The notes under the pieces: generated by a model
What the model saw: the letters and a program-made list of their open reading frames with translations, nothing else
The model's database searches: none
Told to the model about the DNA's origin: nothing
Part shown: positions 4,991-20,859 of the stretch, piece after piece
Layout: every line of letters starts with the position of its first letter
Numbering within the stretch: position 1 is the stretch's first letter
Position numbers and translations under genes: made by a program
Assembly (NCBI GenBank): GCA_903844135.1
Contig: CAIMSN010000071.1
Coordinates: 1-64,000 of the forward strand
DNA length: 64,000 bases
Direction: 5' to 3'
Origin: an uncultured Rhodospirillales bacterium
GTDB lineage: Bacteria > Pseudomonadota > Alphaproteobacteria > Acetobacterales > Acetobacteraceae

Positions 4991-5008
4991 TCACTCCCAC
5001 TCGATGGT
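4991..5008 (-). other. Putative att site of the ICE (guaA 3'-end core)
   Basis: On the minus strand the 18 bp read ACCATCGAGTGGGAGTGA, which encodes T-I-E-W-E-stop, the conserved C-terminus of GMP synthase GuaA. No guaA frame precedes it: the sequence to its right is unrelated and AT-richer. This is what the distal att copy left by integration into the 3' end of guaA would look like. The chromosome would lie to the left and the ICE to the right, with intact guaA at the far end of the element. Confidence 0.75.
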
Positions 5009-5064
5009 CAACTGGTTTGAGTTCGCGTTGTAAATATTGGGTTTTCTGCTCATGCTTCGAACCC

Positions 5065-5217: not shown

Positions 5218-6627
5218 TCAGGTCTCGACGGCGTTGGCAGCAGGCCCTTCACCAGCGGAGCTGCCGGTTGTGATGTCGACTGGACAGAAGCCGAATTCGT
5301 AAACTCGCGATCCTCCGGCGCAGGCCTCTACGTCCCCGAAACATGTGACCGAGCCCGCGATCACCTCGTAGGACGCTCCCCCATTCAGGCGGCGCAAAAG
5401 TTCTGAGATCACTAGCGCTGCGGCCACTAGGCCGACGAACGGAACTCCGACGGTTCGTGACGCGAGCTGCGCGAGGCCGCATGCATCAACGCCCTTGTCC
5501 TTGAGGTTGGCGTAGGCCGGCATGTGCGATACGTCCGGCATTTCCACGGACAGCGTCGTCGGCCAAAGTTCGCTTGCTCGGCGAGGCCCGGGAAAGGTGT
5601 GCATGGCGAAATTGCGAAAGCTCTGCGGGCCAGCACCTAACCCAGACTCGACAATCAGGTCGAACCCCGCATCTTCCAGAGCGGCACGGGCGGTTGCGTT
5701 GTCCACCCCGCACAGCGCCACGGCGGGTTCATCGGCCTGACGCCGCGTCCAAGCGCCGAACCGGCGCTCTTCGAGATACGTCGTGAAACCCCGCGCCTCC
5801 AACCACTCCGCCACGCGTCGCGTCTTCATCCGGCCCAGAACATCAAGGTTGGTGAGAACGGAGGTGCTGTCATTGGAAAGAGCTAGGCGGTCGAAATCCT
5901 GCAACACCAGTTCCAGCCCGCCGGGCGGGTAAGGCAGGCAGGCCAGGAGCCAGGAATAGGCCTGACCGAGATTCCCCAGACCAATGAGCCACAACCGCGA
6001 GGGCAGGAACGCCAGAGCTGGCTCCGTTTCGTCAGCCTCGGTCCAATCGGCTCCCGGACGCCAGAGCGAGAGACCCGAAGCGCGCTTACCAGCCAGCGGG
6101 TGATCGCCGGCATGCAGTGCGAACACCTCGGCCGCGCAGACGGCCGACGCCAGGGCCGGCGCCAGCGGCATGACCGCGTCATCATTCATCGCCCAACCAT
6201 CTCGGACCGGGACGACGCCGGCGCGCCAGCCCTGCCAAGTCACGCGCCACGCGCGCGCCTGAGGCGTCTGCATCTCGACTGAACCAATGACCGCCACTGG
6301 CCAGCCGGATCGGGCATGCGCCGCAATACACCCGCCAAGATTCGACACCGCATCGGCCAGGCTGGTCTCTAGCGCGAGCCCGGTAAGGACCGGCGCATCG
6401 GCCAGCCCGACGATCTCGACTCCCGCCAGGAACGTGCGGCGCGCCAGGTTCACCAGGGTCAGGAGGGCAACCTGAGCCGCCGGGCTCTTCTGGATTTCGG
6501 GGCCGACAACGATGGTGAGACCGAAGGACTTCAGGAGATCCATGGCCTCCTCGGTCGTCTGCGCGCGCCCGCTATCCATGAAATACTTGGCGGTACGGTG
6601 CAGGGATGTGTGAAGCGGCTCGGTCAT
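5218..6627 (-). CDS. bilD: BilD-like E1 ubiquitin-activating enzyme homologue (ThiF family)
   Basis: A 469-residue ThiF/E1-fold adenylyltransferase, expected to adenylate the C-terminus of the ubiquitin-like protein and pass it to the E2. The nucleotide-binding glycine loop GLGNLG lies near residues 216-221, followed by LVLQDFDRL and the GVDNATARAAL segment. A late Cys in GVDACGLAQLA, near residue 390, precedes a helical C-terminus and is a candidate thioester Cys. The N-terminal 200 residues are a less conserved domain. I chose the start at 6627, with GGAG 6 nt upstream and one base after the JAB stop. It is the last gene of the operon. Confidence 0.85.
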   Translation of the reverse strand: MTEPLHTSLHRTAKYFMDSGRAQTTEEAMDLLKSFGLTIVVGPEIQKSPAAQVALLTLVNLARRTFLAGVEIVGLADAPVLTGLALETSLADAVSNLGGCIAAHARSGWPVAVIGSVEMQTPQARAWRVTWQGWRAGVVPVRDGWAMNDDAVMPLAPALASAVCAAEVFALHAGDHPLAGKRASGLSLWRPGADWTEADETEPALAFLPSRLWLIGLGNLGQAYSWLLACLPYPPGGLELVLQDFDRLALSNDSTSVLTNLDVLGRMKTRRVAEWLEARGFTTYLEERRFGAWTRRQADEPAVALCGVDNATARAALEDAGFDLIVESGLGAGPQSFRNFAMHTFPGPRRASELWPTTLSVEMPDVSHMPAYANLKDKGVDACGLAQLASRTVGVPFVGLVAAALVISELLRRLNGGASYEVIAGSVTCFGDVEACAGGSRVYEFGFCPVDITTGSSAGEGPAANAVET

Positions 6628-6628
6628 G

Positions 6629-7589
<961 letters not shown>

Positions 7590-8078
7590 CTAGCCCTCGA
7601 CGCGCTTTTCGGGGACAAGGTCGAAGCACACCGAGCAGACCGGGGCCTTAGTCAGCTCGTGTAGCGGCGTGTCGGTCGCCGGCCGGTCCGTCGAGTTGCA
7701 GAGCTGGAGCACATGCTCCGCGGCGTCGTGGTGGCTGAGCTTGAACGTCTCGACCGCCCAGGCCTTGACCTTCTTGACTCGCGTGCCCGGCGCGAAGGTG
7801 CGCTCCTCGGTCTTCTCGAGGTAGTGCACCGTCACCTTGATCTTGCGGCACTTGCTGACGTGGATGCGGCAGCCGCGCTTGATGGGCAGCAGGGGCTCGT
7901 GGTGCTTGTGCCCCAGCGGCTCCTCCTCCTCATCGATGAAGATGAAGGTGTCGTCGTCGAGTTCGATCCCGAGCGCGGCGATCACGCCGTGCAAATGCTC
8001 GTGGGTCGCGTCCTGCGGCAGTTCAGCCTCGATGAGGCCTTCCCGCTCGTGAACCTGGATGAAAACAATGGTGGTCAT
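7590..8078 (-). CDS. bilA: BilA-like double ubiquitin-like protein (multiubiquitin)
   Basis: A 162-residue protein of two beta-grasp-like units, roughly residues 3-72 and 74-158. Each opens with a hydrophobic strand (TIVFIQVHE and KIKVTVHYLE) and ends with a strand rich in His, Cys and Val. Tandem Ubl domains in one protein are the ISG15-like architecture that names the Bil system. The C-terminus is VPEKRVEG with a single terminal Gly, the expected conjugation end. First gene of the operon: AGGA lies 7 nt before the ATG, and a conserved upstream element is at 8120-8149. Confidence 0.85.
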   Translation of the reverse strand: MTTIVFIQVHEREGLIEAELPQDATHEHLHGVIAALGIELDDDTFIFIDEEEEPLGHKHHEPLLPIKRGCRIHVSKCRKIKVTVHYLEKTEERTFAPGTRVKKVKAWAVETFKLSHHDAAEHVLQLCNSTDRPATDTPLHELTKAPVCSVCFDLVPEKRVEG

Positions 8079-8119
8079 GGTCGATCCTTTCCGGCGCCTT
8101 GATGGCGTCCTGTGAAAGG

Positions 8120-8149
8120 AGCGAAGTCAGTGAGGAAAAACCGGAAGCG
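8120..8149 (-). promoter_or_regulatory. Shared 30-bp promoter-like element of the Bil operon
   Basis: The plus strand reads agcgaag, 15 nt of spacer-like sequence, then ccggaagcg. It matches 12833-12862 at 25 of 30 positions with no gaps, and both copies end exactly 41 nt from the start codon of the gene they precede. Read in the direction of transcription, it offers CTTCCGG followed by a T tract, then CTTCGCT about 15 bp later. This looks like a -35/-10 pair for an alternative sigma factor rather than for sigma-70. Confidence 0.65.
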
Positions 8150-8161
8150 GGGCTGGCGGGC

Positions 8162-11100
8162 TCACACGCCGCAGATGAAATAGCACTGGCAGTTCGGACA
8201 TTGCCGCGCTTCGGGGATCGCCGGGAACTCACCGCGCTCGATGGCGGTGATCGCCTCGGCATATTCCCGCAGCAGTTTATCGTCGTTCTTGGCCGCCATC
8301 GGAACGGATTCGTCCGTGGCTGGATAATAGGCTCCCACCGAGATGGAGCGACCTGGATAACGCTGAGCGGCGCCCTTTCGGATCAGCGCATAGACGCGGT
8401 TGTCCGGCTCGGACTTCGTCTTGCGGCCCGTGCGGATTCGCTGAACGCGCACCCGACCATCCGGCGCGATGACGACCCGGTCCGGCGTGTAGGTGATCGT
8501 CCTGCCGCCCACCTGCACCGACCACGGCTCCCGGTCATAGGTCCCTGTCTCGGAGGCGATCAGGCCGGCGATGGACACCACCATCGTCTCCGCCGCCGCG
8601 CGGTAGTAACCCTCGAACCCGTGACCGCCAGGGCCGTGCTCCGCCCATTGGCGAGCGAGTTCCTGCAATGCCTGGTCGGGGCTCGCCGGCTGGCCTTTCT
8701 CGGCTTGCTGTTCAAGCCAGCCCATCGTGCGGTGGACGCAGCGATGGAACCGCAGATAGGCAGACGAATCCCGTCCCCCGCGCAAACCATCCAGTACCTC
8801 ATAGCGATAGCGCGCCGGGCACCTCAGATAGACATCAAGTTCCCGTTCGTCATAACCGTCGCGCGGCGCAAGAGGCGACCAGACCTGCGCGGCCTTGAGC
8901 GCAGGCACCAGACCACTGAAACGCCTCACCTGAACATGACGAGAGACGGTGTCGAGAAACTTCGACGCGCTGGCATTGACTTGGGTGTAGCGCTCGGCCC
9001 GGGTAAGGCAAAGATGATCTCGCGCACGCGAGAGGCCTACGAAGAACAGGCATTCCTCTTCTGCGTCGTGATCCTCTTTCTGCATAGTGAGCTTGCCGAG
9101 TGTCACGGGCGGGGGGCAGCGTACCCATTGACGATTGGTCGGCATGTAGCGGGTGGCGAGCGCCGGCAGATGCACCCCGCGGAACTCCAACCCCTTGCTC
9201 CCATGGATTGTCATCACCCGCACCGCGTCGAAATCCGCAGCTTCGGAGACAACAGCCCGATACCGGCTGTCCTGGCTTAGCGCTTCAATGCGGCGGATGC
9301 GTTCGAGCAAGGCCTTGCGGCCCGGGTCGCGCAGATCAGCGTGTCCTTCGACATCGTGTTGCTCGCTGCACACCTTGAGGAGCTGATAGATCGCGATCAG
9401 CTTCTGCTGTGCCTGGGCGTCCGGAGCCTCCAGCAAGGGCCGAAGATAGTTACTGCGTTCGAACAGCCAGGTCGTTAGCAGCGCCCATGGCGAGGTGGTC
9501 GGACCCATGCCGGCAAGATGCTCCGCCAGCTTGCGCAGACCCGCGCGGCCGGTCTCGCTCAGGCCATCGATCTCGTCCAATCGAGCAAGGGCTTCATAGA
9601 CGGTATGGCCTTGGTCCTGAGACCAGCGAATGACCACAAGAGCGTCGTCCTTGGACGACGCATACTCTGGCAGCTGTGCGACACGGACCAACCCAATGCC
9701 GCCGAACTCCGCGTCGACGGCGACGAGGGAGAGTAGATCCCGGACATCGTCCCTTTCGAACAGGTCCCCAAGATAAAGGAGAGGAACGCCGAGCTGCTCC
9801 AGCACATCGGTGATGCGCGACAGCGTTAGGTGGCTGCGCGCGAGGATCGCCTGATCTCGGTAGGCAATGCCGCTCGCACGAAGGGCTTCGATCTGATCGC
9901 GGATGGCAGCAGCCTCTTCCGCGACCGTGCCCGCCACAGTGAGCGACACGTCGCCAAGTTCACCGCGGAACGCACCCCAGTTCGCCGCTGCGCCGGGGTC
10001 GGCCGCCATGTGGCGCGAGAACTCCGAAAACGCGCGCACCACCGGCCCGCCTGAGCGGTAGTTGCTGGTAAGCGATACCTTCGAACCGCTGAAATCCGTC
10101 TGGAAGCGCTCGACGTTGGCCGGCGACGCTCCACGGAATCGGTAGATTGACTGACGCTGATCGCCGACCACCCACACGTCCTGGCAGCCGCCGGCCAGCA
10201 ACTGCAGTAGCCGTGCGCTCGCGAAGTTCACATCCTGATATTCGTCGACCAGGATGTGCTGGAAGCGCTGCTGGAACTCCACGCGGATGTCTTCGTGTTC
10301 CGCCATCAACTGCGCGGGCAGCATCACGAGATCGCCGAAATCAACGGCGTCCGCCTCACGCAGTGCATCCTGATAGATTTTGTAGATCTCCCCGACCTCG
10401 ACCGCTTTTTCGGCAGCCTCGACTTCGTCAGGCGTCGCATTGGCAAGCGCGGCCCTCGCCTCGGTCAGATAGTCCTCCGGCGAGATCAGCTCATCCTTGC
10501 ATCGCGAGATTGCTTGCAGGACGTAGACCAGCTCGTAGGCGGGCTCGAACAGGTTCTGATAGTAGCGCAGCGGAAGGCGCGAGAGGTTCGCTTCGAGAAG
10601 CGCGAGCTGGGCAGTCTGATCGAGAATTTTGACGTCGGCCGTGCGTCCGAGACGGCCAGGCCATTTGGTGACCATCTCCAGGCCGAAGCCGTGGAATGTC
10701 CCGACCCACATCTCGATCGCCGCGTCCCGATGGGAGTCGGAAAGCCGCTCACGCATCTCCTCGGCAGCCTTTTTCGAAAAGGTGAGTGCTAGGATCGAAC
10801 CTGAAAGAGCGCCCTGGGCGAGGACATGCCCGATCCGGTGCACGAGAGTGCGAGTTTTGCCCGTCCCCGGTCCCGCATCAACGAGGAGAGGACCACCATC
10901 CCAGGTCGCCGCCTGCTTCTGGCTTTCATCAAGCTCGATCAGAACGGCCGGGCCGCGCTGGCCCGGTTCGCGAAGCGGCGGCAGCAACAGGGCGCGAATG
11001 GCCTGATTGAGGACGAGACCATAGGGAAGGCCCAACTCCTCGGCGACTTCCGAAGGGCGACGCGCCTTGTCCACAATTTCGGTGCGCAGCCAGTCGGCGG

Positions 11101-11521
11101 GGCACAGGAATTCGCCGGCGAAGATATCCGCCTGCATCTCCTTGCGCTCGCGCGGCGAATAGCCCTCCACCACACCCGCGCCGCTGTCGATGGGGTCCCC
11201 GCCAAGCTGCGCCTGGACGTTTCGTACCTCGTTGCTCGGATCGTGATGGAGTTCCGAGTGACCGATCTCGTGAGCGATCACGACCACCTCGTCCTTCGGG
11301 TCCTGGCCACTGACGACGTACACGAGCCCATCAGCACGTTCGAAAGACCCGTGCACGCCAACCCCGAACACTTCACCGGGCTGGCAATAACGCAACTCCA
11401 GATCGGCATCTTTCAGGGCGGCATCGACGAGAGCGCGACCGCGACGGTCACCCTGGGCGACACTCAATGCATTTAAATGGCAAACGCGGGCCTTCAGCCG
11501 AATGTCGCGCCAGGCGTCCAT
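8162..11521 (-). CDS. ImmA/IrrE protease - UvrD helicase - PD-(D/E)XK nuclease fusion
   Basis: A 1119-residue fusion. Residues 1-200 form an ImmA/IrrE-type zinc protease (HEIGH at 84-88, a third-ligand Glu in RKEMQAD near 128). Residues 200-850 form a UvrD/PcrA-type SF1 helicase: Walker A GPGTGKT at 217-223, VDEYQDV as motif II, GDQRQSIYRFRGA as motif III, and TIHGSKGLEF late. The C-terminal 250 residues look like an AddB/RecB-family PD-(D/E)XK nuclease with a predicted Fe-S cluster: one Cys in YLRCPARYRYE and three in the terminal CPNCQCYFICGV. It begins 2 bp after the 205-residue regulator stops. The fusion suggests DNA-end processing tied to proteolysis of a repressor; that link is inferred. 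Confidence 0.88.
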   Translation of the reverse strand: MDAWRDIRLKARVCHLNALSVAQGDRRGRALVDAALKDADLELRYCQPGEVFGVGVHGSFERADGLVYVVSGQDPKDEVVVIAHEIGHSELHHDPSNEVRNVQAQLGGDPIDSGAGVVEGYSPRERKEMQADIFAGEFLCPADWLRTEIVDKARRPSEVAEELGLPYGLVLNQAIRALLLPPLREPGQRGPAVLIELDESQKQAATWDGGPLLVDAGPGTGKTRTLVHRIGHVLAQGALSGSILALTFSKKAAEEMRERLSDSHRDAAIEMWVGTFHGFGLEMVTKWPGRLGRTADVKILDQTAQLALLEANLSRLPLRYYQNLFEPAYELVYVLQAISRCKDELISPEDYLTEARAALANATPDEVEAAEKAVEVGEIYKIYQDALREADAVDFGDLVMLPAQLMAEHEDIRVEFQQRFQHILVDEYQDVNFASARLLQLLAGGCQDVWVVGDQRQSIYRFRGASPANVERFQTDFSGSKVSLTSNYRSGGPVVRAFSEFSRHMAADPGAAANWGAFRGELGDVSLTVAGTVAEEAAAIRDQIEALRASGIAYRDQAILARSHLTLSRITDVLEQLGVPLLYLGDLFERDDVRDLLSLVAVDAEFGGIGLVRVAQLPEYASSKDDALVVIRWSQDQGHTVYEALARLDEIDGLSETGRAGLRKLAEHLAGMGPTTSPWALLTTWLFERSNYLRPLLEAPDAQAQQKLIAIYQLLKVCSEQHDVEGHADLRDPGRKALLERIRRIEALSQDSRYRAVVSEAADFDAVRVMTIHGSKGLEFRGVHLPALATRYMPTNRQWVRCPPPVTLGKLTMQKEDHDAEEECLFFVGLSRARDHLCLTRAERYTQVNASASKFLDTVSRHVQVRRFSGLVPALKAAQVWSPLAPRDGYDERELDVYLRCPARYRYEVLDGLRGGRDSSAYLRFHRCVHRTMGWLEQQAEKGQPASPDQALQELARQWAEHGPGGHGFEGYYRAAAETMVVSIAGLIASETGTYDREPWSVQVGGRTITYTPDRVVIAPDGRVRVQRIRTGRKTKSEPDNRVYALIRKGAAQRYPGRSISVGAYYPATDESVPMAAKNDDKLLREYAEAITAIERGEFPAIPEARQCPNCQCYFICGV

Positions 11522-11523
11522 GG

Positions 11524-12141
11524 CTAGTCCTCCTCAAGCCAGTAGGACTTGCGCTCCGGTGACATGCTGCTTCGTCGGACGCTCTCCTCATAGCTGCACT
11601 GTACGATCGTGGGCTGCTGCGACGCCTTCGCGTGGCCCATGGAAGGGTGGGCCTGCGAATAGGCAAGCGCACGGTCGAACTGCGCACGGGTCGCCTTAAG
11701 CTGGCCGAGCAACGCCTTTACCAATCGCGGCCCGATAGGGGGTGACATCCGCCCACGAAAAAGGTCCGACAGGACATCGCGGCCGACATCGATGGCGCGG
11801 CCGAGCTGCCGTGTATCCGATCCCGCACTGGACAGCAGTTGGTCGAACGTCGTCTCCGGCGCAGCTTGAGTGTTGTCCTGTTCGACTGCCTGAGCATTGT
11901 AGATGGCGTTGAGTACACGGCTGCGGGCACGGTTCATCATCAGTTCGTCGACCACTTCCTCCTCCGCTTCTTCGTCAGCGGCCCAATCACGCATGATCCC
12001 GGCATGCGCGCGGATGTCGTCAGCGAACTCAGGGTAACGCTGTGTCCAGTTGATGATCTGATCCAGCGTCGGGGTGGCGCATTCCCGGTGGAATGCGAAC
12101 AAGACCTCGTCCCGCCTCGTGGCTTTGGTTTGGTCCGTCAT
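11524..12141 (-). CDS. Helical/HTH-like regulator, candidate anti-sigma factor or repressor
   Basis: A 205-residue protein between the sigma-like gene (ATGA overlap at 12138-12141) and the protease-helicase fusion. Residues 1-50 are helical (LDQIINWTQRYPEFADDI), followed by an acidic stretch. Residues 95-145 (QLGRAIDVGRDVLSDLFRGR) look like a degenerate XRE-type helix-turn-helix. ImmA/IrrE proteases typically cleave XRE-type repressors encoded beside them, so this is the most likely protease substrate. It could equally be a sigma-binding protein. No close family is recognised. Confidence 0.6.
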   Translation of the reverse strand: MTDQTKATRRDEVLFAFHRECATPTLDQIINWTQRYPEFADDIRAHAGIMRDWAADEEAEEEVVDELMMNRARSRVLNAIYNAQAVEQDNTQAAPETTFDQLLSSAGSDTRQLGRAIDVGRDVLSDLFRGRMSPPIGPRLVKALLGQLKATRAQFDRALAYSQAHPSMGHAKASQQPTIVQCSYEESVRRSSMSPERKSYWLEED

Positions 12142-12791
12142 GACTTAGCTCCAAGAATGGTTCTGATCTCTTCCTCTGTCTCCTTGACCCAGGTCTCGGC
12201 GGTCTTCGCGCTCACGCCAAGCGCCGAAGCGATGGACTCGACCTTGGTGGAGTTGCGCGGCACGCCATCCATATGAAGACGGAAGGCGAGAACCTTCCGC
12301 GGATCGGAGATCCGCTTCAGCACACTCTCGACATGAGCGCGCTCCTCGTCTTCCGTCGCCAGGGCCTTATGTCCGTCCGGGCGTTGCTCTTCGTCCTCGG
12401 AATAGACGTACCGTTCTGAATGCAGTTGCTCACGGCGGATAGCGTCGGCGGCGCGGAGTTTGATCCGGGCAACAAACGCTGTCCGCATCCCAATGCCGTC
12501 TGCTGAGGTCGGCTTAAGGACCGCCTCGATCAGTTGGTGATGGACCGCTTCGATCATGTCCCACCCCTCGTTGCGATGGTTCTTGCCGATGTGCATGCGC
12601 AGGATGCGCATCATGCGTTCGGCAATTTCATTCATGAGGGGATTGATGACGCGTGGATCGCCAAACGCCCCGATCTGCTGAGCCGCAGCAACTAAGTGGC
12701 GGCCCTGAATCTTTCCAAGCGACTGGTTCTTGATGACCTGCCGCCAGGCGGCAATGTCGCCGGGATCGGGTCCTTCTTCGAGTTTGTCCAT
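12138..12791 (-). CDS. Sigma-factor-like regulator (ECF-like)
   Basis: A 217-residue protein. Residues 90-130 (FVARIKLRAADAIRREQ) resemble sigma region 2, and the C-terminal 65 residues resemble region 4, with the HTH KVESIASALGVSAKTAETWV. The N-terminal 80 residues are not recognised. It is the first gene of a three-gene operon with the 205-residue regulator and the protease-helicase-nuclease. The promoter-like element upstream (12833-12862) is shared with the Bil operon, so it probably controls both. The RBS is GGGGAAGG just before the ATG. Confidence 0.65.
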   Translation of the reverse strand: MDKLEEGPDPGDIAAWRQVIKNQSLGKIQGRHLVAAAQQIGAFGDPRVINPLMNEIAERMMRILRMHIGKNHRNEGWDMIEAVHHQLIEAVLKPTSADGIGMRTAFVARIKLRAADAIRREQLHSERYVYSEDEEQRPDGHKALATEDEERAHVESVLKRISDPRKVLAFRLHMDGVPRNSTKVESIASALGVSAKTAETWVKETEEEIRTILGAKS

Positions 12792-12832
12792 AGTCCTTCC
12801 CCAACAGCCCTGGCGACGCGGTCCGGAGGTGA

Positions 12833-12862
12833 AGCGAAGCCAGATTGAAAAAACCGGAAGCG
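12833..12862 (-). promoter_or_regulatory. Shared 30-bp promoter-like element of the sigma-factor operon
   Basis: Partner of 8120-8149: the same length, the same outer blocks agcgaag and ccggaagcg, a similar A tract, and the same 41-nt distance to the start codon (12791). The five mismatches cluster in the spacer (positions 8, 12-14 and 16). An autoregulated sigma gene plus one target operon is the simplest reading. Confidence 0.65.
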
Positions 12863-12884
12863 CTCCGCGGAAATTTTTTCGTCG

Positions 12885-13136
12885 TCAGGTTGTTATGCTC
12901 AAGCTAGATGAGAACAATATGTGAACACAGGAGATTCGCCCGTCAGTCGGGAGGCTAAGGTGAAAAGGACTTTGATGTTGGGATGGCGATCTCGCGCCTG
13001 TTGCGCGACGTCCTGCCCCGCTCATGTCCCCGGGCAGTACGACGTCCGTGAAGACGTGGTCAATCGGCCACTCATCCAGTTCGGCGATCCCCGACAGGCG
13101 GATGGGCTGATTGTCGCCTTCAGCTTGCTCGCCCAT
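12885..13136 (-). pseudogene. Possible remnant of a response-regulator receiver domain
   Basis: An 83-codon minus-strand frame directly following the AbiEii stop. Its middle, HVFTDVVLPGDMSG, matches the phospho-acceptor strand of receiver domains (FTDVVMPGGMSG in relatives). The sequence loses similarity on both sides and lacks the N-terminal acidic pair and the C-terminal Lys block. It is best read as a decayed fragment, and the call is weak. Confidence 0.3.
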
Positions 13137-14159
13137 CTACTTCCCTTTCCCGACGTCGTTTGCCCGCGCTTCAATGTCGGCACATCGCTCGATCAGCGCT
13201 TCGAAGGGCTCGACATCCTCCAGAAGCAGACCGTCGTCGACCATCTGGCCGTAGTCCTTGCTCAACGCCGCCAGCCCTACGCCGGCCGGGACAAGGCGTA
13301 GACCGCCGCGTACGGCTGCGTCGTAGTCGATCAGCGCACCGTCCGCCGCCTTCTCGGCGAAGAACATGCTTTTGTGACTGGCGACGGCACTGCCGAGCTG
13401 CCGATCCGCGAGGGCGGCGGCGGCGATTCCGGCCTCGTCGAGCCGAACGACATCGTGCCAGTGTCGCGCGAAGCGTTCGCCGCGAAGCCTCTCTTGCAGG
13501 CAGAAGACGTGGATGGCCGTGGCCTTCTCCCAGAACGTCCGCTCGGCGTGCATCACGCGGGGCCGAGCCGACGGAAAGTCGACCCCGTCGATCAATCCGG
13601 CGGCGTCGCAGGTTACGTCGCGCAGGCTTGCCGGCTCTCCTGTCGACCGGGCGCCGAATTCCAGCATCACGCTGGGAGCGACGTAGCCGGAGCCCGCCGA
13701 GGTGGCCTCGTAGTCGACGTAGAGCCGATCGCCTTCTGGTCTGAGGGTTGCCGCGAGCGACTGCGCGTCGAGCGCGCTGGCGACGAGAGGCTGGACCGTG
13801 CCGGCTATCCATTCGGGAAGGCGGCGGCGCACCGCCTTCGACCACCGCTTTTCCTCGCTGCGGTTTTTTGGCAGCGCTTCGCCGTCCTCGCCGACAAGGT
13901 CGGGCGCGATGGCGCGAATGTCATAGGTCAGGTCCACGTCCTCGGAAAAGCGCCGGATGACGCCATAAGCCTTGGACAGGGAGGTGCCGCCCTTGAACAC
14001 CAGGTGCGCGCCGATGTCCGATCCGAACAAGGTCGCCAGCGCCCAGACGACCCACACATCCTTTTCGAGGAGATGCGCCGGGCGGCCGGATCGATCGGCG
14101 GCGACGCGCAGGGCCTCACGGCGGTCCTCGACCGGCAGGGAGAGAAAGGCGTCAGCCAT
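13137..14159 (-). CDS. abiEii: AbiEii/AbiGii-family nucleotidyltransferase toxin
   Basis: A 340-residue nucleotidyltransferase-fold toxin of a type IV toxin-antitoxin pair. The defining motif GGTSLSKAYGVIRRFSEDVDL (residues about 58-78) contains the GSx/DxD-like catalytic block of AbiEii proteins. In characterised AbiE systems the toxin blocks growth during phage infection, and the antitoxin AbiEi represses the operon and counteracts it. It overlaps abiEi by 8 bp (14152-14159). Confidence 0.9.
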   Translation of the reverse strand: MADAFLSLPVEDRREALRVAADRSGRPAHLLEKDVWVVWALATLFGSDIGAHLVFKGGTSLSKAYGVIRRFSEDVDLTYDIRAIAPDLVGEDGEALPKNRSEEKRWSKAVRRRLPEWIAGTVQPLVASALDAQSLAATLRPEGDRLYVDYEATSAGSGYVAPSVMLEFGARSTGEPASLRDVTCDAAGLIDGVDFPSARPRVMHAERTFWEKATAIHVFCLQERLRGERFARHWHDVVRLDEAGIAAAALADRQLGSAVASHKSMFFAEKAADGALIDYDAAVRGGLRLVPAGVGLAALSKDYGQMVDDGLLLEDVEPFEALIERCADIEARANDVGKGK

Positions 14160-14745
14160 AGGCGGCCTTTCCCACGCTCCGCGCGAGCCACGTCGGAAGC
14201 TGCGGCGCGGCGGCCACCAGCTCGCCGAAGACGCCTGGCGGCATCTTCCGCTTCAGCGTCATGAGCGCTTCCTCGGCTTTGTCGGGACCTAACCACGCGA
14301 GGGCGCGCACGGCTTCGCCCGCCGGCCGACTGCCCAAGGTCAACTGCCAGCGCGGCGCATGGCGCAGCTCCACAACCTGCTTGCCGAGGCTCATCTTTCG
14401 GCTGCGGCCCGAAGTCAGATAGACCGACCGAACCGGCACCTGCGTCGTCAGGCCAAGGGCGTTAGCCGCAGCCGCCCCGTTCGAAACAATGACCTCGCCC
14501 CGCTGGGCGGCAAGCGCCTCCACAGCCTGTTCGACCGAAGGCGCGCGCGTGCCGAACCGGGACGTGATCGGGCGGAGGTAGACTCCCCGCCCGGCACGGA
14601 TGAGCTGCCCACGCTCGGCCAGACGCGACAAGGCCTGGTCCACTGCGGCGCGATTGCCGAGGTGGAGCAAGCTCTTAGCAGATATGGGCGCCCCTTCGGA
14701 CTGCCTCTCCGCATATGCCAGAATCTGTTCGCTCAGACGCGACAT
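14152..14745 (-). CDS. abiEi: AbiEi-family antitoxin (DUF6088-like)
   Basis: A 197-residue protein with an N-terminal winged HTH (LLHLGNRAAVDQALSRLAERG, residues about 25-45) followed by RAGRGVYLRP, a standard feature of AbiEi-type antitoxins. The C-terminal part should neutralise AbiEii. I chose 14745 because GGGAG lies 7 nt upstream; a second in-frame ATG two codons earlier sits too close to that site. Its own promoter is at 14765-14792. Confidence 0.85.
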   Translation of the reverse strand: MSRLSEQILAYAERQSEGAPISAKSLLHLGNRAAVDQALSRLAERGQLIRAGRGVYLRPITSRFGTRAPSVEQAVEALAAQRGEVIVSNGAAAANALGLTTQVPVRSVYLTSGRSRKMSLGKQVVELRHAPRWQLTLGSRPAGEAVRALAWLGPDKAEEALMTLKRKMPPGVFGELVAAAPQLPTWLARSVGKAAYG

Positions 14746-14764
14746 GGCCATTCTCCCGTTAGAA

Positions 14765-14792
14765 ATGTAAGCGGTTTTCTGACAGTTTGCAA
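14765..14792 (-). promoter_or_regulatory. Candidate promoter of the AbiE operon
   Basis: On the minus strand TTGCAA (14787-14792) and TTACAT (14765-14770) are separated by 16 bp, giving a sigma-70-like pair about 20 bp from the abiEi start. The leader would be short, as in many autoregulated antitoxin operons. Confidence 0.4.
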
Positions 14793-14964
14793 CCGAATGC
14801 CCAGGACACCGAAGGCTCCGGAAATTAGGAGTCATCGGGACCGGCCGCACCCTGGGGCCTGGGCAACTAGGATGAAGCTGTCTCAGATCCGAGGATTGCG
14901 CTATGATTGCAGGCCTCCTTCACCGAGTCTGGCGACGAGAAACGAGACAGGTGGAGGCCCGGAC

Positions 14965-16873: not shown

Positions 16874-17899
16874 ATGTCGGAAAGCGCCACGAGCACAAAG
16901 TCCAAGCTCACCTTCCTGGAAACGGTCTATCCGCCGATTTCCAACCAGGAGGCCGTTTGGCTTGAAAATGACCCAGAGGTCGAGGAGCTGCTCCGGAAAA
17001 GCGACTTCTACATGATCGGCGGACGCGCAGAGGCCAAGTATGTCAACCTGGCCATCGATCCTGAGACCTATGTCGCGACGTTCGACTTCGCCGTCGGCGA
17101 CGACTTCCGCGACCCGGTGGAAATCCACATCCGCAACTTGCCGGCCGTCGCGGCCTCGAAAGCCGCCTCGTTCTGGATCGAGGGCGGCGAAAAGAACATC
17201 CGCGTCTGGGACGGCCCGATCGGCGAACCCGGCTCGAACGTGCTGGAATGGTTCACGACTGAGAAGCTGATCTGGGACCGATCTCGCGGCCGCACTGGCA
17301 TCGAGCGTTTTGACCGGCATCGCGAAGCCGCCACCTACGATCTCCTCTACGTTGGGATCGCCAAGGTCGGGGACAGCTTCGACCGTTTGATCAACAACGG
17401 CCACAAGGCCCGTATGCAAATCCTCGGGAACGAGCCGCAGCGCTATCCCGGTGCGCGCGTGACCGATGAGATCTACCTCTTCCTGTTCAACGTCCAACCG
17501 CTGATCATGACCACGTTCGAACCGGAGCATGCTTTCGAGGACGAGGATTTCAGCGGCGCCTTCGATGAGAAGCGGATCGTCGCGGACGCCGAGAAGGCTT
17601 TCGTCAGCCTCCTGAAGCCCGAATACAACGTGGTGAAGTTTGCCAGCTACCCGAAGGGGGCGGATGGCCTCTACGGCTCGGACTTCGTTCGCTACGGCTA
17701 CGTGATCTGCGAATCCATTTCCTTCAACACGGCGCATGGCCGGATTAGGGGAAGCCGGGACGCGGCCACCGGCTTCATCACCAATGGTGCCGACAGCATC
17801 TTCGTCGAAGGAGACGCCGTGAAGTTGTTCGTATCCGGCGTCGACTTCCCGGCGGAGCCCTCACCGGACCAGAAGGAAGAAGATCAGGGGGGCGTATGA
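16874..17899 (+). CDS. Hypothetical protein with GIY-YIG-like domain
   Basis: A 341-residue protein. YDLLYVGIAK (near residue 155), a following Arg/His-rich helix (FDRLINNGHKARMQIL) and a distal AEKAFVSLLKPEYNV (Glu, then KPxYN) are arranged as in GIY-YIG nucleases. The first strand lacks a canonical GIY, so activity is uncertain. The N-terminal 140 residues are beta-rich and unrecognised. The start at 16874 lies 2 bp after the previous stop. The end overlaps the TrlF-like gene by 4 bp. Confidence 0.55.
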   Translation: MSESATSTKSKLTFLETVYPPISNQEAVWLENDPEVEELLRKSDFYMIGGRAEAKYVNLAIDPETYVATFDFAVGDDFRDPVEIHIRNLPAVAASKAASFWIEGGEKNIRVWDGPIGEPGSNVLEWFTTEKLIWDRSRGRTGIERFDRHREAATYDLLYVGIAKVGDSFDRLINNGHKARMQILGNEPQRYPGARVTDEIYLFLFNVQPLIMTTFEPEHAFEDEDFSGAFDEKRIVADAEKAFVSLLKPEYNVVKFASYPKGADGLYGSDFVRYGYVICESISFNTAHGRIRGSRDAATGFITNGADSIFVEGDAVKLFVSGVDFPAEPSPDQKEEDQGGV

Positions 17900-20859
17900 T
17901 CAATCGCGGTTCGGAATGGCATCGTTGGGAGCCGCACATCCATGCGCCCGGCACTTTGTTCAACAACCAATTCAAAGGCCCGAGTGCCTGGAGCGACTAT
18001 TTCAGCAGCCTCGAAGAGGCGACGCCTGTGGTCCGCGCGATCGCGGTGACCGACTATTACTGTACCGACACCTATCAGCACGTCGTGCGGGAGATGAACG
18101 AAAACGGCCGCCTGCCGCAGGTCGCGCTCGTTTTCCCCAATGTCGAGTTGCGGCTCGACGTGGCGACCGTGAAAGAGCGTTGGACCAACATCCACCTTCT
18201 CGTCTGCCCCGATGATCCAAAACATGTGGCGGAGGTCGAGCGCTTTCTCAGCCGGCTGAGATTTGAAGCCTTCGGCGACAACTTTGCCTGCACCCGAGAA
18301 GACCTCGTCAAGCTGGGGCGAAAGTCCAAGCCGGAGCTGAGCGATGAGCGGGCCGCGTTCCGCCATGGGGCTTCGCAGTTCAAGGTCAACTTCGGAAAAC
18401 TGCGCGAGGAATACGGCAAGAGCGATTGGGCAAAAAAGAACATCCTAGTCGCTGTCGCAGGCGCCGAAACCGATGGCACGTCTGGCATCCGCGATGCCAA
18501 TGACGCAACCTTGCGTCAGGAAATCGAGAAGTTCGCGCACGTCATCTTTGCCAGCAGCCCAGCCCAACGCGATTTCTGGCTGGGGCGCAAAAGCGGCGTC
18601 GGCGAGGACGTGCTTCGCGAGCGCTACGACGGCTGCAAGCCATGCCTGCACGGCAGCGATGCGCATGAACAAGCGACCGTCGCCCAGCCCGATGGCAACC
18701 GCTATTCTTGGATTAAAGGCGCGCTCGAATTCGATGCGCTGCGCCAGGCCTATATAGATCCCGCCGGTCGGGCCTATGTCGGGCCCCATCCCCCTTTTCG
18801 GGCCACCCCCGCCCGCGTCATAGCGGAGATGGAATTGACGGGTGCGGACTGGGCGCAGACGCCTAGGCTCGCATTGAATCCCGGATTGGTCGCCATTATT
18901 GGCGCGCGGGGCTCTGGCAAGACCGCGCTCGCGGATGCGATCGCGGCGGGCTGCGACGCCACGGACGGTCGCTTGAGCAACGCGTCGTTTATCGTGCGGG
19001 CCCGTGAGCATCTCGGCGGCGCCGGCGTCCGGCTGACCTGGGAGACTGGGGATCCGTCGGTGCGCCCTTTGCTCGACGATGCCTTCGATCCGTCGCTCTA
19101 TCCGCGGGCGCGCTATCTTTCTCAGAAATTCGTTGAAGAGCTGTGCTCGGCTGACGGACTCAAAGACGAATTGCTGAGCGAGATCGAGCGGGTGATTTTC
19201 GAAGCACACAGGACGCTGGAACGCGACGATGCGACAGACTTCAGCGAGCTGCTGGAGCTTCGAACGACGGTGTTGCGCGATAACCGCTATCGAGACGAGG
19301 AGGCCATTGGCACCCTTTCCGATCAGGTCGGGCTCGAGCGCGAGAAGCAAAGCCAGATCGCCGGCCTGAAATCGCAAATCAGTCAGAAGGACGCGCTGAT
19401 CGCCGGCTATATCAAGAGCCGAGACAAGCTGGTGACCGCAGGCAGCGTGGAACGGATCGCGCGGCTGAACGCGCTGGCCGAAGCTGCCGATCATGTCCGT
19501 ACGCAGATTCGGTTGTGGTCGCAGGAATGCCAAGCTCTGCGGTCTCTACAGAATGACGTGTCGGATTTCCGAACCAATCGCGCGCCCATGGCGCTGCGCA
19601 CGAGCAAGCAGACCTTCGTCGGCGCGCATCTGGATGACAAGGCGTGGGAGGCGTTCCAGCAGACTTACGCCGGCAATGTCGACGGGACGTTGACCGAACG
19701 GATGGCAAGGGCCGATCGGCAGGCAGCCACATGGCGGGGTAAGGAGCACCCACGCAAGGCGAGCGATCAGGACCCCTACGTCGCGGATGACGCCGAGTTG
19801 AAGCGATTGTCGCTCGGCGAACTGGAGGCCGAGATCGGCCGCATTCAGCGCCTCATCAACATCGATACCGACACCGCCAATCGCCTGAAAACGATCACCA
19901 CCAAGATTGGAGATGAGAATGCCGCGCTGAAGCGCCTGAAGGATACGCTGGCCGATTGTGAAGGCGCCGCGGCGCGCACTACCCAGCTCCAAACAGATCG
20001 AGAACTGGCCTATTTGCGGGTCTTCGAGTCGATCGTTGCGGAAGAGCAAGTGCTGCATGCACTGTATCGCCCGCTCATGGATCGGCTCGCGCAGGCGTCG
20101 GGTACGCTGCGTAAATTGTCGTTCTCGGTGTCTCGCCATGCGGACGTACATCGCTGGGCGACGGAGGGCGAAGGCCTGTTCGACAAGCGACGCACCGGCC
20201 CCTTCAAAGGCGTCGGTACGTTGGAGGCCTGGGCCGCTGCGCTGCTGAAGCCAGCCTGGGAATCAGGGGATCCGAAAGCTGTTGCCGAGGCCATGGCGGG
20301 ATTTCGTCAGGCCCATCAGGCCGAGTTGCTCGATCTCTCGGAGGTGCCGCGGTCACAGCAAGCTGATTATCGTTCCTGGCTGAGACGGTTCGCCAAATGG
20401 CTTTATGGCACCAACCATATCGAGATCAGCTACAGCATCGACTACGAAGCCGTAGATATCCGGAAGCTCTCGCCGGGCACGCGCGGCATCGTCCTGCTGC
20501 TACTCTATCTCGCCCTGGACGACAGCGATGACCGCCCGCTGATCATTGACCAGCCGGAGGAGAACCTCGATCCGAAATCGATCTTCGACGAGCTGGTCGA
20601 GCTATTCATCGCCGCGAAGAATGTGCGTCAGGTCATTATGGTGACCCACAACGCGAATCTCGTCGTCAACACGGACGCCGATCAGGTCATCGTCGCGTTT
20701 TCCGGCACCCATACGCCCGGCAAGCTACCGCCCATCCGGTATCTGTCCGGTGGCCTCGAAAACGCGGAGATGCGGAAGCATGTGTGCGACATCCTCGAAG
20801 GTGGCGACCGCGCCTTCAAAGAGCGCGCGCGACGACTTCGTGTCCGCCTCGATCGATGA
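17896..20859 (+). CDS. TrlF-family PHP-domain / SMC-like AAA ATPase
   Basis: A 987-residue protein. Residues 1-300 form a PHP-type phosphoesterase domain (EPHIHAPG, FPNVELRLDV, HGSDAHEQ). Walker A IIGARGSGKTALADAI lies near 335. A coiled-coil region spans about 430-720. Then come the ABC signature LSPGTRGIVLLLLYLAL, Walker B PLIIDQPEENLDP and an H-loop VTHNANLVV. This PHP plus SMC/RecN-like plan is that of TrlF-family ATPases found in defence islands; a DNA-binding or DNA-cleaving sensor is the likely role. It overlaps both neighbours by ATGA. Confidence 0.85.
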   Translation: MINRGSEWHRWEPHIHAPGTLFNNQFKGPSAWSDYFSSLEEATPVVRAIAVTDYYCTDTYQHVVREMNENGRLPQVALVFPNVELRLDVATVKERWTNIHLLVCPDDPKHVAEVERFLSRLRFEAFGDNFACTREDLVKLGRKSKPELSDERAAFRHGASQFKVNFGKLREEYGKSDWAKKNILVAVAGAETDGTSGIRDANDATLRQEIEKFAHVIFASSPAQRDFWLGRKSGVGEDVLRERYDGCKPCLHGSDAHEQATVAQPDGNRYSWIKGALEFDALRQAYIDPAGRAYVGPHPPFRATPARVIAEMELTGADWAQTPRLALNPGLVAIIGARGSGKTALADAIAAGCDATDGRLSNASFIVRAREHLGGAGVRLTWETGDPSVRPLLDDAFDPSLYPRARYLSQKFVEELCSADGLKDELLSEIERVIFEAHRTLERDDATDFSELLELRTTVLRDNRYRDEEAIGTLSDQVGLEREKQSQIAGLKSQISQKDALIAGYIKSRDKLVTAGSVERIARLNALAEAADHVRTQIRLWSQECQALRSLQNDVSDFRTNRAPMALRTSKQTFVGAHLDDKAWEAFQQTYAGNVDGTLTERMARADRQAATWRGKEHPRKASDQDPYVADDAELKRLSLGELEAEIGRIQRLINIDTDTANRLKTITTKIGDENAALKRLKDTLADCEGAAARTTQLQTDRELAYLRVFESIVAEEQVLHALYRPLMDRLAQASGTLRKLSFSVSRHADVHRWATEGEGLFDKRRTGPFKGVGTLEAWAAALLKPAWESGDPKAVAEAMAGFRQAHQAELLDLSEVPRSQQADYRSWLRRFAKWLYGTNHIEISYSIDYEAVDIRKLSPGTRGIVLLLLYLALDDSDDRPLIIDQPEENLDPKSIFDELVELFIAAKNVRQVIMVTHNANLVVNTDADQVIVAFSGTHTPGKLPPIRYLSGGLENAEMRKHVCDILEGGDRAFKERARRLRVRLDR

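Follow-up and report, generated by a model that had tools for sequence, protein, structure and literature searches.

A Bil ubiquitin-like operon and its upstream regulatory genes share a predicted sigma-type promoter

We analyzed a stretch of 64,000 nucleotides (nt) from an uncultured Rhodospirillales bacterium of the Acetobacteraceae (assembly GCA_903844135.1, contig CAIMSN010000071.1, positions 1 to 64,000; hereafter, the window), which carries a Bil (bacterial ISG15-like) operon. On the minus strand, a sigma-like gene, a gene that we call X, and a gene encoding an IrrE-UvrD fusion are followed by bilA, bilB, bilC, and bilD (Table 1). Two copies of a 30-nt element, one upstream of the sigma-like gene and the other upstream of bilA, have the features of promoters read by one sigma factor. 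We give a probability of about 0.85 to the view that a Bil ubiquitin-like conjugation system is encoded here under the control of its own alternative sigma factor, with X as the proposed anti-sigma factor and the IrrE-UvrD protein as the proposed trigger.

The two copies, P_sigma and P_bil, are identical at 25 of 30 positions, with five differences and no gap, and each lies 41 nt before a start codon, that of the sigma-like gene (12791) or of bilA (8078). The original prediction, made from the window alone, had given these positions and this identity, and rereading the sequence returned the same values. On the minus strand, the element reads TTCCGG, a T tract and, at its end, TTCGCT, and is oriented toward both operons. 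In the window, the consensus of the two copies matched exactly these two sites, and 100 dinucleotide shuffles gave no match. Across the whole 3.78-Mb genome, the consensus with up to three mismatches found the two locus copies and no third. The two-block core with up to two mismatches gave two perfect sites and one site with two mismatches, as compared to one site for the reversed-pattern control. Transcription from P_sigma would be expected to start a few nucleotides downstream of the -10-like block. A scan of positions 7900-13200 for sigma70-type promoters returned no sites, which is little informative, as shuffles averaged 0.8.

We compared 31 loci in which the sigma gene is present and the flanks are readable. 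This set leaves aside L060 (truncated sigma), L069 (cut by the start of the record), and L058 and L063 (sigma gone, element kept), while L007 and L008 duplicate L011 and L014. Downstream of the module, where the cargo begins, a two-block match was present in 31 of 31 loci, with 5.6 expected from shuffles of the same stretches. On the sigma side, the element was found in 23 of 31 loci (22 by pattern and L009 with two mismatches), with 4.4 expected. The relatives carry a TTCC- or TACC-type block, followed at 22 or 23 nt (21 nt in L067) by CGCT, CGAT, CGAC, or TTGTA. The tight form, T[TA]CCG with a distance of 22 to 23 nt, matched 24 cargo and 18 sigma sides, as compared to 0.3 and 0.2 expected. 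All 22 pattern-matched pairs had at least one offset common to both copies; the pattern also hits probable chance sites, such as the sigma side of L074 or a site at -100 in L012. The original prediction had made its case depend on conservation of the motif upstream of both operons in homologous loci, and both copies were indeed present in 22 of the 23 sigma-bearing Bil loci, L072 having the cargo (bilA) copy alone. Among the multiubiquitin loci, only L068 carries the element before sigma. Thus, autoregulation is common but not universal. The A tract (a T tract in the transcribed sense), which had been counted as a general part of the element, did not hold up, as divergent relatives, for example L053 and L055, lack it.

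We also scored the cargo elements with a leave-one-out position weight matrix (PWM) and found that for 14 of 20, at most 1 in 200 shuffles was as good. L076 scored negative because only the intergenic stretch was given, and its -35 block lies inside the 3' end of the helicase gene. Scores of five Bil loci that lack the module (L061, L062, L064, L065, and L066) did not exceed those of shuffles, 25 to 115 of 200 being as good; their upstream stretches differed in length, from 56 to 400 nt, and the bilA start of L065 is approximate. When five relative genomes were searched, the two locus sites were the only perfect matches in four; in the fifth, the sigma site of L009 has two mismatches. Other sites with two mismatches numbered 0 to 4 per genome, a total of eight versus nine for the reversed controls.

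The -10-like block varies between loci (CGCT, CGATTA, CGATCA, CGACT, TTGTA, and CGATT) and matches within a locus. We examined this co-divergence in 13 loci, one for each set of near relatives. In an unanchored test, the best 31-nt match of the sigma upstream region scored 21.5 with its own cargo upstream region and 18.0 with those of other loci, a result equaled in none of 200,000 permutations. For 9 of the 13 sigma regions, the own cargo was the best match or tied for best; it came second for three and seventh for one (L068). In the anchored comparison, the identity of the -10 block was 0.88 within loci and 0.38 between them (0 of 200,000 permutations), while that of the -35 block was 0.85 versus 0.64. 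The spacer reached 0.45 within and 0.34 between loci, and the flanks (0.32 and 0.35 within versus 0.31 and 0.30 between) stayed near background. Because one sigma factor reading two promoters predicts paired copies with a locus-specific -10-like block, these results support the core of the original prediction, that the sigma-like protein drives both its own operon and the Bil operon. They would also be compatible with the inducible defense regulon that it proposed. Comparison of the loci thus shows a sigma relationship, paired putative promoters, and their co-divergence, the last of which is hard to obtain from terminators, duplication, or chance.

The first gene of the module appears to encode a divergent extracytoplasmic function (ECF)-like sigma factor, as judged from its relatives and its structural model. 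The sigma-like assignment had been proposed from the outset and stands mainly through the relatives. Four of the eight scanned (L049, L053, L056, and L067) exceeded the Pfam cut-off for Sigma70_r4_2, L057 equaled it, and L055 fell below. With NCBIfam, one or more sigma models were matched by eight of nine relatives at E ≤ 0.001, in each case under the curated cut-off, and L071 matched none. The AlphaFold model of the window protein resembles sigma factors, aligning with region 4 of SigD over 61 residues (Z 9.5, 1.3 Å) and, as a whole chain, with sigmaE (1or7) over 148 residues (Z 9.3, root mean square deviation 12.6). Nearly all of the first 30 rows returned by Foldseek were sigma or initiation-complex chains. 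A PDB sequence search with the same protein gave HEAT/alphaRep matches to the N-terminal part and one short match to RacA, which we did not retain, and no sigma factor.

Several observations weigh against this interpretation. The window protein matched TIGR02937 with E=3.4e-7 and 30.1 bits, under the curated 42.9, and no Pfam sigma model; among the eight relatives scanned, L051 and L071 had no Pfam sigma match either, and L055 and L057 also exceeded the cut-off of the LuxR-type GerE model. The structural model is of medium confidence (predicted local distance difference test, 70.7; predicted template modeling score, 0.45), its Z of about 9.5 falls in a range common for helical folds, and Foldseek found no match below E=0.001, the best being weak at 0.015. 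As for the element, many of the 31 loci are close relatives, and eight of them (L067 and L070-L076) have no element before sigma. In the PWM test, 7 to 138 of 200 shuffles were as good as the cargo elements of L015, L017, L049, L051, L056, and L071. The best window of the unanchored test covered the whole element in 11 of 13 loci, part of it in L053, and another sigma-side site in L057. The anchors of the block and PWM tests and the search patterns were chosen after the motif had been seen, with anchoring by eye. The slight within-locus similarity of the spacer, reached by 2,480 of 200,000 permutations, may mean that the copies share part of their ancestry. Last, the anti-sigma role of X and its cleavage are argued from analogy.

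There are other explanations of the paired element. It could be an operator to which X binds at both copies as a repressor, with IrrE cleaving X to derepress the operons in a CapH/CapP-like manner and the sigma-like protein being accessory. Such an arrangement would suit the XRE fold of X, the IrrE-type protease with its HExxH motif in 25 of 25 sequences, and the XRE and ImmA/IrrE pairs used by three more distant Bil loci. We nevertheless regard it as unlikely, as the element consists of two unlike blocks with fixed spacing, oriented toward both operons, and shows no clear palindrome: the mean score was 2.90 versus 2.67 for shuffles, with 13 of 200 shuffle sets as high, and 3 of 26 elements beat 95% of their own shuffles. 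In addition, the relatives of the first gene are sigma-like, and two of the Bil loci with XRE and IrrE genes, L061 and L062, lack the element.

A role of the elements as intrinsic terminators of upstream transcripts, built of a GC-rich hairpin and a T tract, is scarcely credible. Although one terminator-like site (12867-12855) overlaps P_sigma, the four such sites found compare with a shuffle mean of 4.2, the T tract is missing in loci such as L053 and L055 that keep both blocks, and the shared -10-like block would be left unexplained. We find it just as improbable that the two copies are products of duplication or gene conversion without a shared function. Copies within a locus are more alike than those of different loci, including a slight similarity of the spacer, but in the 13 divergent loci the likeness is confined to the two blocks, with the spacer and both flanks near the between-locus level.

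Beyond the element, the profiles of BilA, BilB, BilC, and BilD are all matched in one operon in the usual order (PADLOC, E from 2.5e-55 to 6.6e-174). In the window BilB, the catalytic cysteine C113 is accompanied by a glutamate at +6 (E119) and a histidine at +8 (H121), and the last histidine of the motif is at +15, not +13; PMC11354881 describes this CEHH motif. From its genes, the locus is predicted to be a BilABCD system that protects against phage. The upstream operon had been described as encoding sigma, protease, and helicase, but the protease and the helicase are a single fused gene. Thus, the operon has three genes, of which X and sigma overlap by 4 nt. The leader of bilA contains a predicted hairpin of -18.2 kcal/mol (z -3.9 in the window), whereas other bilA leaders gave z values of -2.0 to -2.9 in four cases and about -0.6 in two. 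In a 10-sequence alignment, five of the six consensus pairs have changed on both sides, with some broken cells. The sigma leader folded into no hairpin (z +1.2). The bilA hairpin may limit translation or shield the 5' end.

Table 1. Genes and predicted regulatory features of the Bil locus in the window (aa, amino acids; HTH, helix-turn-helix).
Feature	Position	Strand	Details
Predicted divergent ECF-like sigma factor, 217 aa	12138-12791	minus	sigma2- and sigma4-like helices; TIGR02937 below cut-off, relatives, model
X, 205 aa	11524-12141	minus	N-terminal helices and XRE-type HTH (residues ~96-164); proposed anti-sigma factor and IrrE substrate
IrrE/M78 protease-UvrD helicase-PDDEXK_1-like fusion, 1119 aa	8162-11521	minus	HEIGH at residue 84; cysteines 901, 1108, 1111, 1117
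bilA, ubiquitin-like, C-terminal Gly	7590-8078	minus	PADLOC BilA E=2.5e-55
bilB, E2-like	7104-7589	minus	PADLOC BilB E=1.1e-64; Pfam DUF7665
bilC, JAB peptidase	6629-7150	minus	PADLOC BilC E=1e-67; Prok-JAB
bilD, E1-like	5218-6660	minus	PADLOC BilD E=6.6e-174
P_sigma	12833-12862	minus	predicted promoter; -35-like TTCCGG 12859-12854, 16-nt spacer, -10-like TCGCT 12837-12833; relatives keep the blocks
P_bil	8120-8149	minus	predicted promoter; -35-like TTCCGG 8146-8141, 16-nt spacer, -10-like TCGCT 8124-8120
Hairpin in bilA leader	8085-8120	minus	pairs with the presumed ribosome-binding site

The model of X shows a helical N terminus followed by an XRE fold (residues 96-164), which best matched 3kxa (Z 8.8, 69 residues) and also resembled SaPI2 Stl (Z 7.2) and DdrO (6jq1; Z 5.9, 60 residues, 2.3 Å). 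Foldseek found no match for X at E ≤ 0.001, and a PDB sequence search with X gave nothing useful. The protease part of the fusion matched the Pfam M78 profile with E=2.3e-9 and 37.6 bits versus a cut-off of 22. Together with HExxH, four cysteines are present in all 25 helicase fusion sequences; they may hold an Fe-S cluster. The nuclease motif of the PDDEXK_1-like part is D/E-x-K. It is absent from the aligned position in each of the 25 sequences, indicating that the nuclease has decayed. According to PMC13373217 and PMC10904395, CapH and DdrO are substrates of the IrrE-type proteases CapP and PprI, which are activated by single-stranded DNA.

These features suggest how a sigma-controlled Bil locus could work. 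The sigma factor would bind core RNA polymerase and guide it to a pair of promoters with the pattern TTCCG - 17 to 18 nt - CGCT (other loci having CGAT and similar sequences), of which the first precedes the sigma operon itself and the second bilABCD. X would keep the sigma factor inactive as an anti-sigma factor, a role proposed because its gene overlaps that of sigma and its XRE fold is like that of known IrrE substrates. The IrrE-UvrD fusion would sense unusual or single-stranded DNA arising from phage replication or damage. As the protease site and the helicase motifs are kept while the nuclease site is lost, we propose that the helicase part serves to detect DNA and not to destroy it. By analogy with the processing of CapH by CapP, the activated protease would cleave X and free the sigma factor, which would then fire both promoters with positive feedback. 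Because its own operon would be among its targets, activation should be self-reinforcing.

The sigma-X-IrrE-UvrD module also occurs in other alpha-, beta-, and gammaproteobacteria and in a cyanobacterium, before either BilABCD or multiubiquitin/ThiF/DUF6527 operons. A genome scan with the sigma alignment found 10 loci; together with a Rhizobium phaseoli plasmid and the window, the order of the seven genes was the same in 12 of 12. A search of plasmid records with BilB matched 22, of which 18 were inspected; the others (H4, H13, H14, and H17) had the same scores as inspected records. In 10 of the 18, sigma, X, and the helicase precede the Bil genes. Four keep parts of the module. Sinorhizobium medicae L058 and L063 retain the Bil operon and the element, but of the module only a C-terminal stub of the helicase remains, with sigma gone nearby, so that their promoter may have been orphaned by the loss of sigma. 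Cupriavidus L059 has sigma and X and no helicase, and in Sphingorhabdus L060, sigma is truncated at an IS256 insertion sequence and no element was found. The remaining four have other regulators: XRE and ImmA/IrrE in L061, L062, and L078, and an HTH gene in L077. In the Paraburkholderia locus L062 (6094-7482), visual inspection showed a GCTGATTAGC-type repeat upstream of the XRE gene and again upstream of bilA, which may be a shared operator in the style of CapH.

With the sigma protein of L053 as a query, 46 plasmid records matched, and 15 were inspected. Among these, the module precedes multiubiquitin-ThiF-DUF6527 operons in Rhizobium, Agrobacterium, Acinetobacter, Sinorhizobium, Roseovarius, and the cyanobacterium Leptolyngbya; the cargo of L068, L075, and L070 was checked with Pfam. 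In Bradyrhizobium L072, the module lies before a divergent Bil operon. The helicase frame is apparently split in L068 and L071, and in L067, IS66 genes follow the element and no cargo operon was recognized. The module is thus portable, as it precedes multiubiquitin/ThiF/DUF6527 as well as Bil operons. We lean slightly toward viewing it as a new class of portable controller, in which an ECF-like sigma factor, an XRE-type anti-sigma factor, and a DNA-sensing IrrE-UvrD protein would form a positive-feedback switch for Bil and multiubiquitin systems of alpha-, beta-, and gammaproteobacteria and cyanobacteria, with -10 blocks co-evolving with the sigma factor.

Within the class, a first sequence search detected relatives of the sigma protein in 3 of 385 genomes, including that of the window. 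The BilD family search matched 179 of 398 genomes, four with E<1e-100 (the window, L064, L065, and L066), the others looking like generic ThiF proteins. L064-L066 gave no sigma match by tblastn with the window protein, a weak test, as this query also misses the sigma of L059; more tellingly, no open reading frame long enough for the helicase fusion was present in the 4.5 kb upstream of bilA. In L066, two genes upstream of bilA (7930-9448) are weakly HATPase_c-like and MarR-type-HTH-like, both below cut-offs, and look STAS-like by eye; this is perhaps a Bil locus of the CapK/CapS type. In viral contigs, 84 stretches matched a pattern, and none encodes a sigma relative; phage records contained no BilB match.

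As for the genomic setting, the guaA 3' end has a copy at 4991-5009 that recurs with one mismatch at contig positions 78990-79008 (L080), so that a direct repeat bounds about 74 kb. At the distal repeat, a GMP synthase frame (GMP_synt_C, GATase) continues to its end and is adjoined by a phage-type integrase gene, and genes for a relaxase, a type IV secretion system coupling protein, and VirB8 lie between the repeats. The Bil locus thus occupies one end of an apparent integrative conjugative element, about 74 kb in size. An AbiEii/AbiEi toxin-antitoxin pair (13137-14850) is located directly upstream of the locus, and in L073, L069, and L076 the annotation likewise places AbiE-type pairs next to the sigma module. 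Farther along, a 987-aa protein (17896-20859) has its best PADLOC match to Ppl (E=6.1e-30) and weaker matches to several ATPase defense models.

The locus bears on the question of how toxic or costly immune operons stay silent and are then switched on. In the sources as accessed, CapW, CapH/CapP, and CapK/CapS work through repressors; a dedicated sigma factor, if confirmed, would be an activating and self-amplifying solution for ubiquitin-like systems. From the locus-specific -10 blocks, one can predict which sigma factors and promoters belong together, pairs that could be exchanged, and the module hints at the DNA signal by which ubiquitin-like conjugation is induced in bacteria. The open-access texts, as far as accessible (including PMC13373217, PMC1779556, PMC11354881, and PMC12839542), yielded no sigma-controlled Bil or multiubiquitin system, although an earlier mention of the upstream genes is possible.

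As compared to the known BilABCD anti-phage system, the locus has the same bilA-D genes in the same order but is preceded by sigma, X, and IrrE-UvrD genes and by a predicted shared sigma-type promoter. With CapH and CapP, as well as with Deinococcus DdrO and PprI/IrrE, it shares an M78/IrrE protease and an XRE-fold partner, here beside an immune operon. It differs in that its protease and a UvrD helicase form one protein, the XRE partner carries additional helices at its N terminus, and an activator, the sigma factor, is the proposed output. CapK and CapS, five times before Bil operons (PMC13373217), and CapW/BrxR occupy the same place, as controllers responsive to DNA damage upstream of immune operons. 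These act through repressors, however; CapK resembles anti-sigma kinases, but the passages of PMC13373217 that were consulted mention no controlled sigma factor. A further parallel, with an overlapping partner gene, is sigmaE-RseA, an ECF sigma/anti-sigma pair governed by regulated proteolysis; the model of the window protein resembles an ECF-like fold (1or7 being among the matches). The sigmaE promoter is autoregulated, a likeness to P_sigma, while the usual ECF -35 sequence is GGAAC, as compared to the TTCCG block found here. In contrast to RseA, a membrane anti-sigma factor, the proposed partner at the Bil locus would be a cytoplasmic XRE-type protein, under the control of an IrrE-helicase protease.

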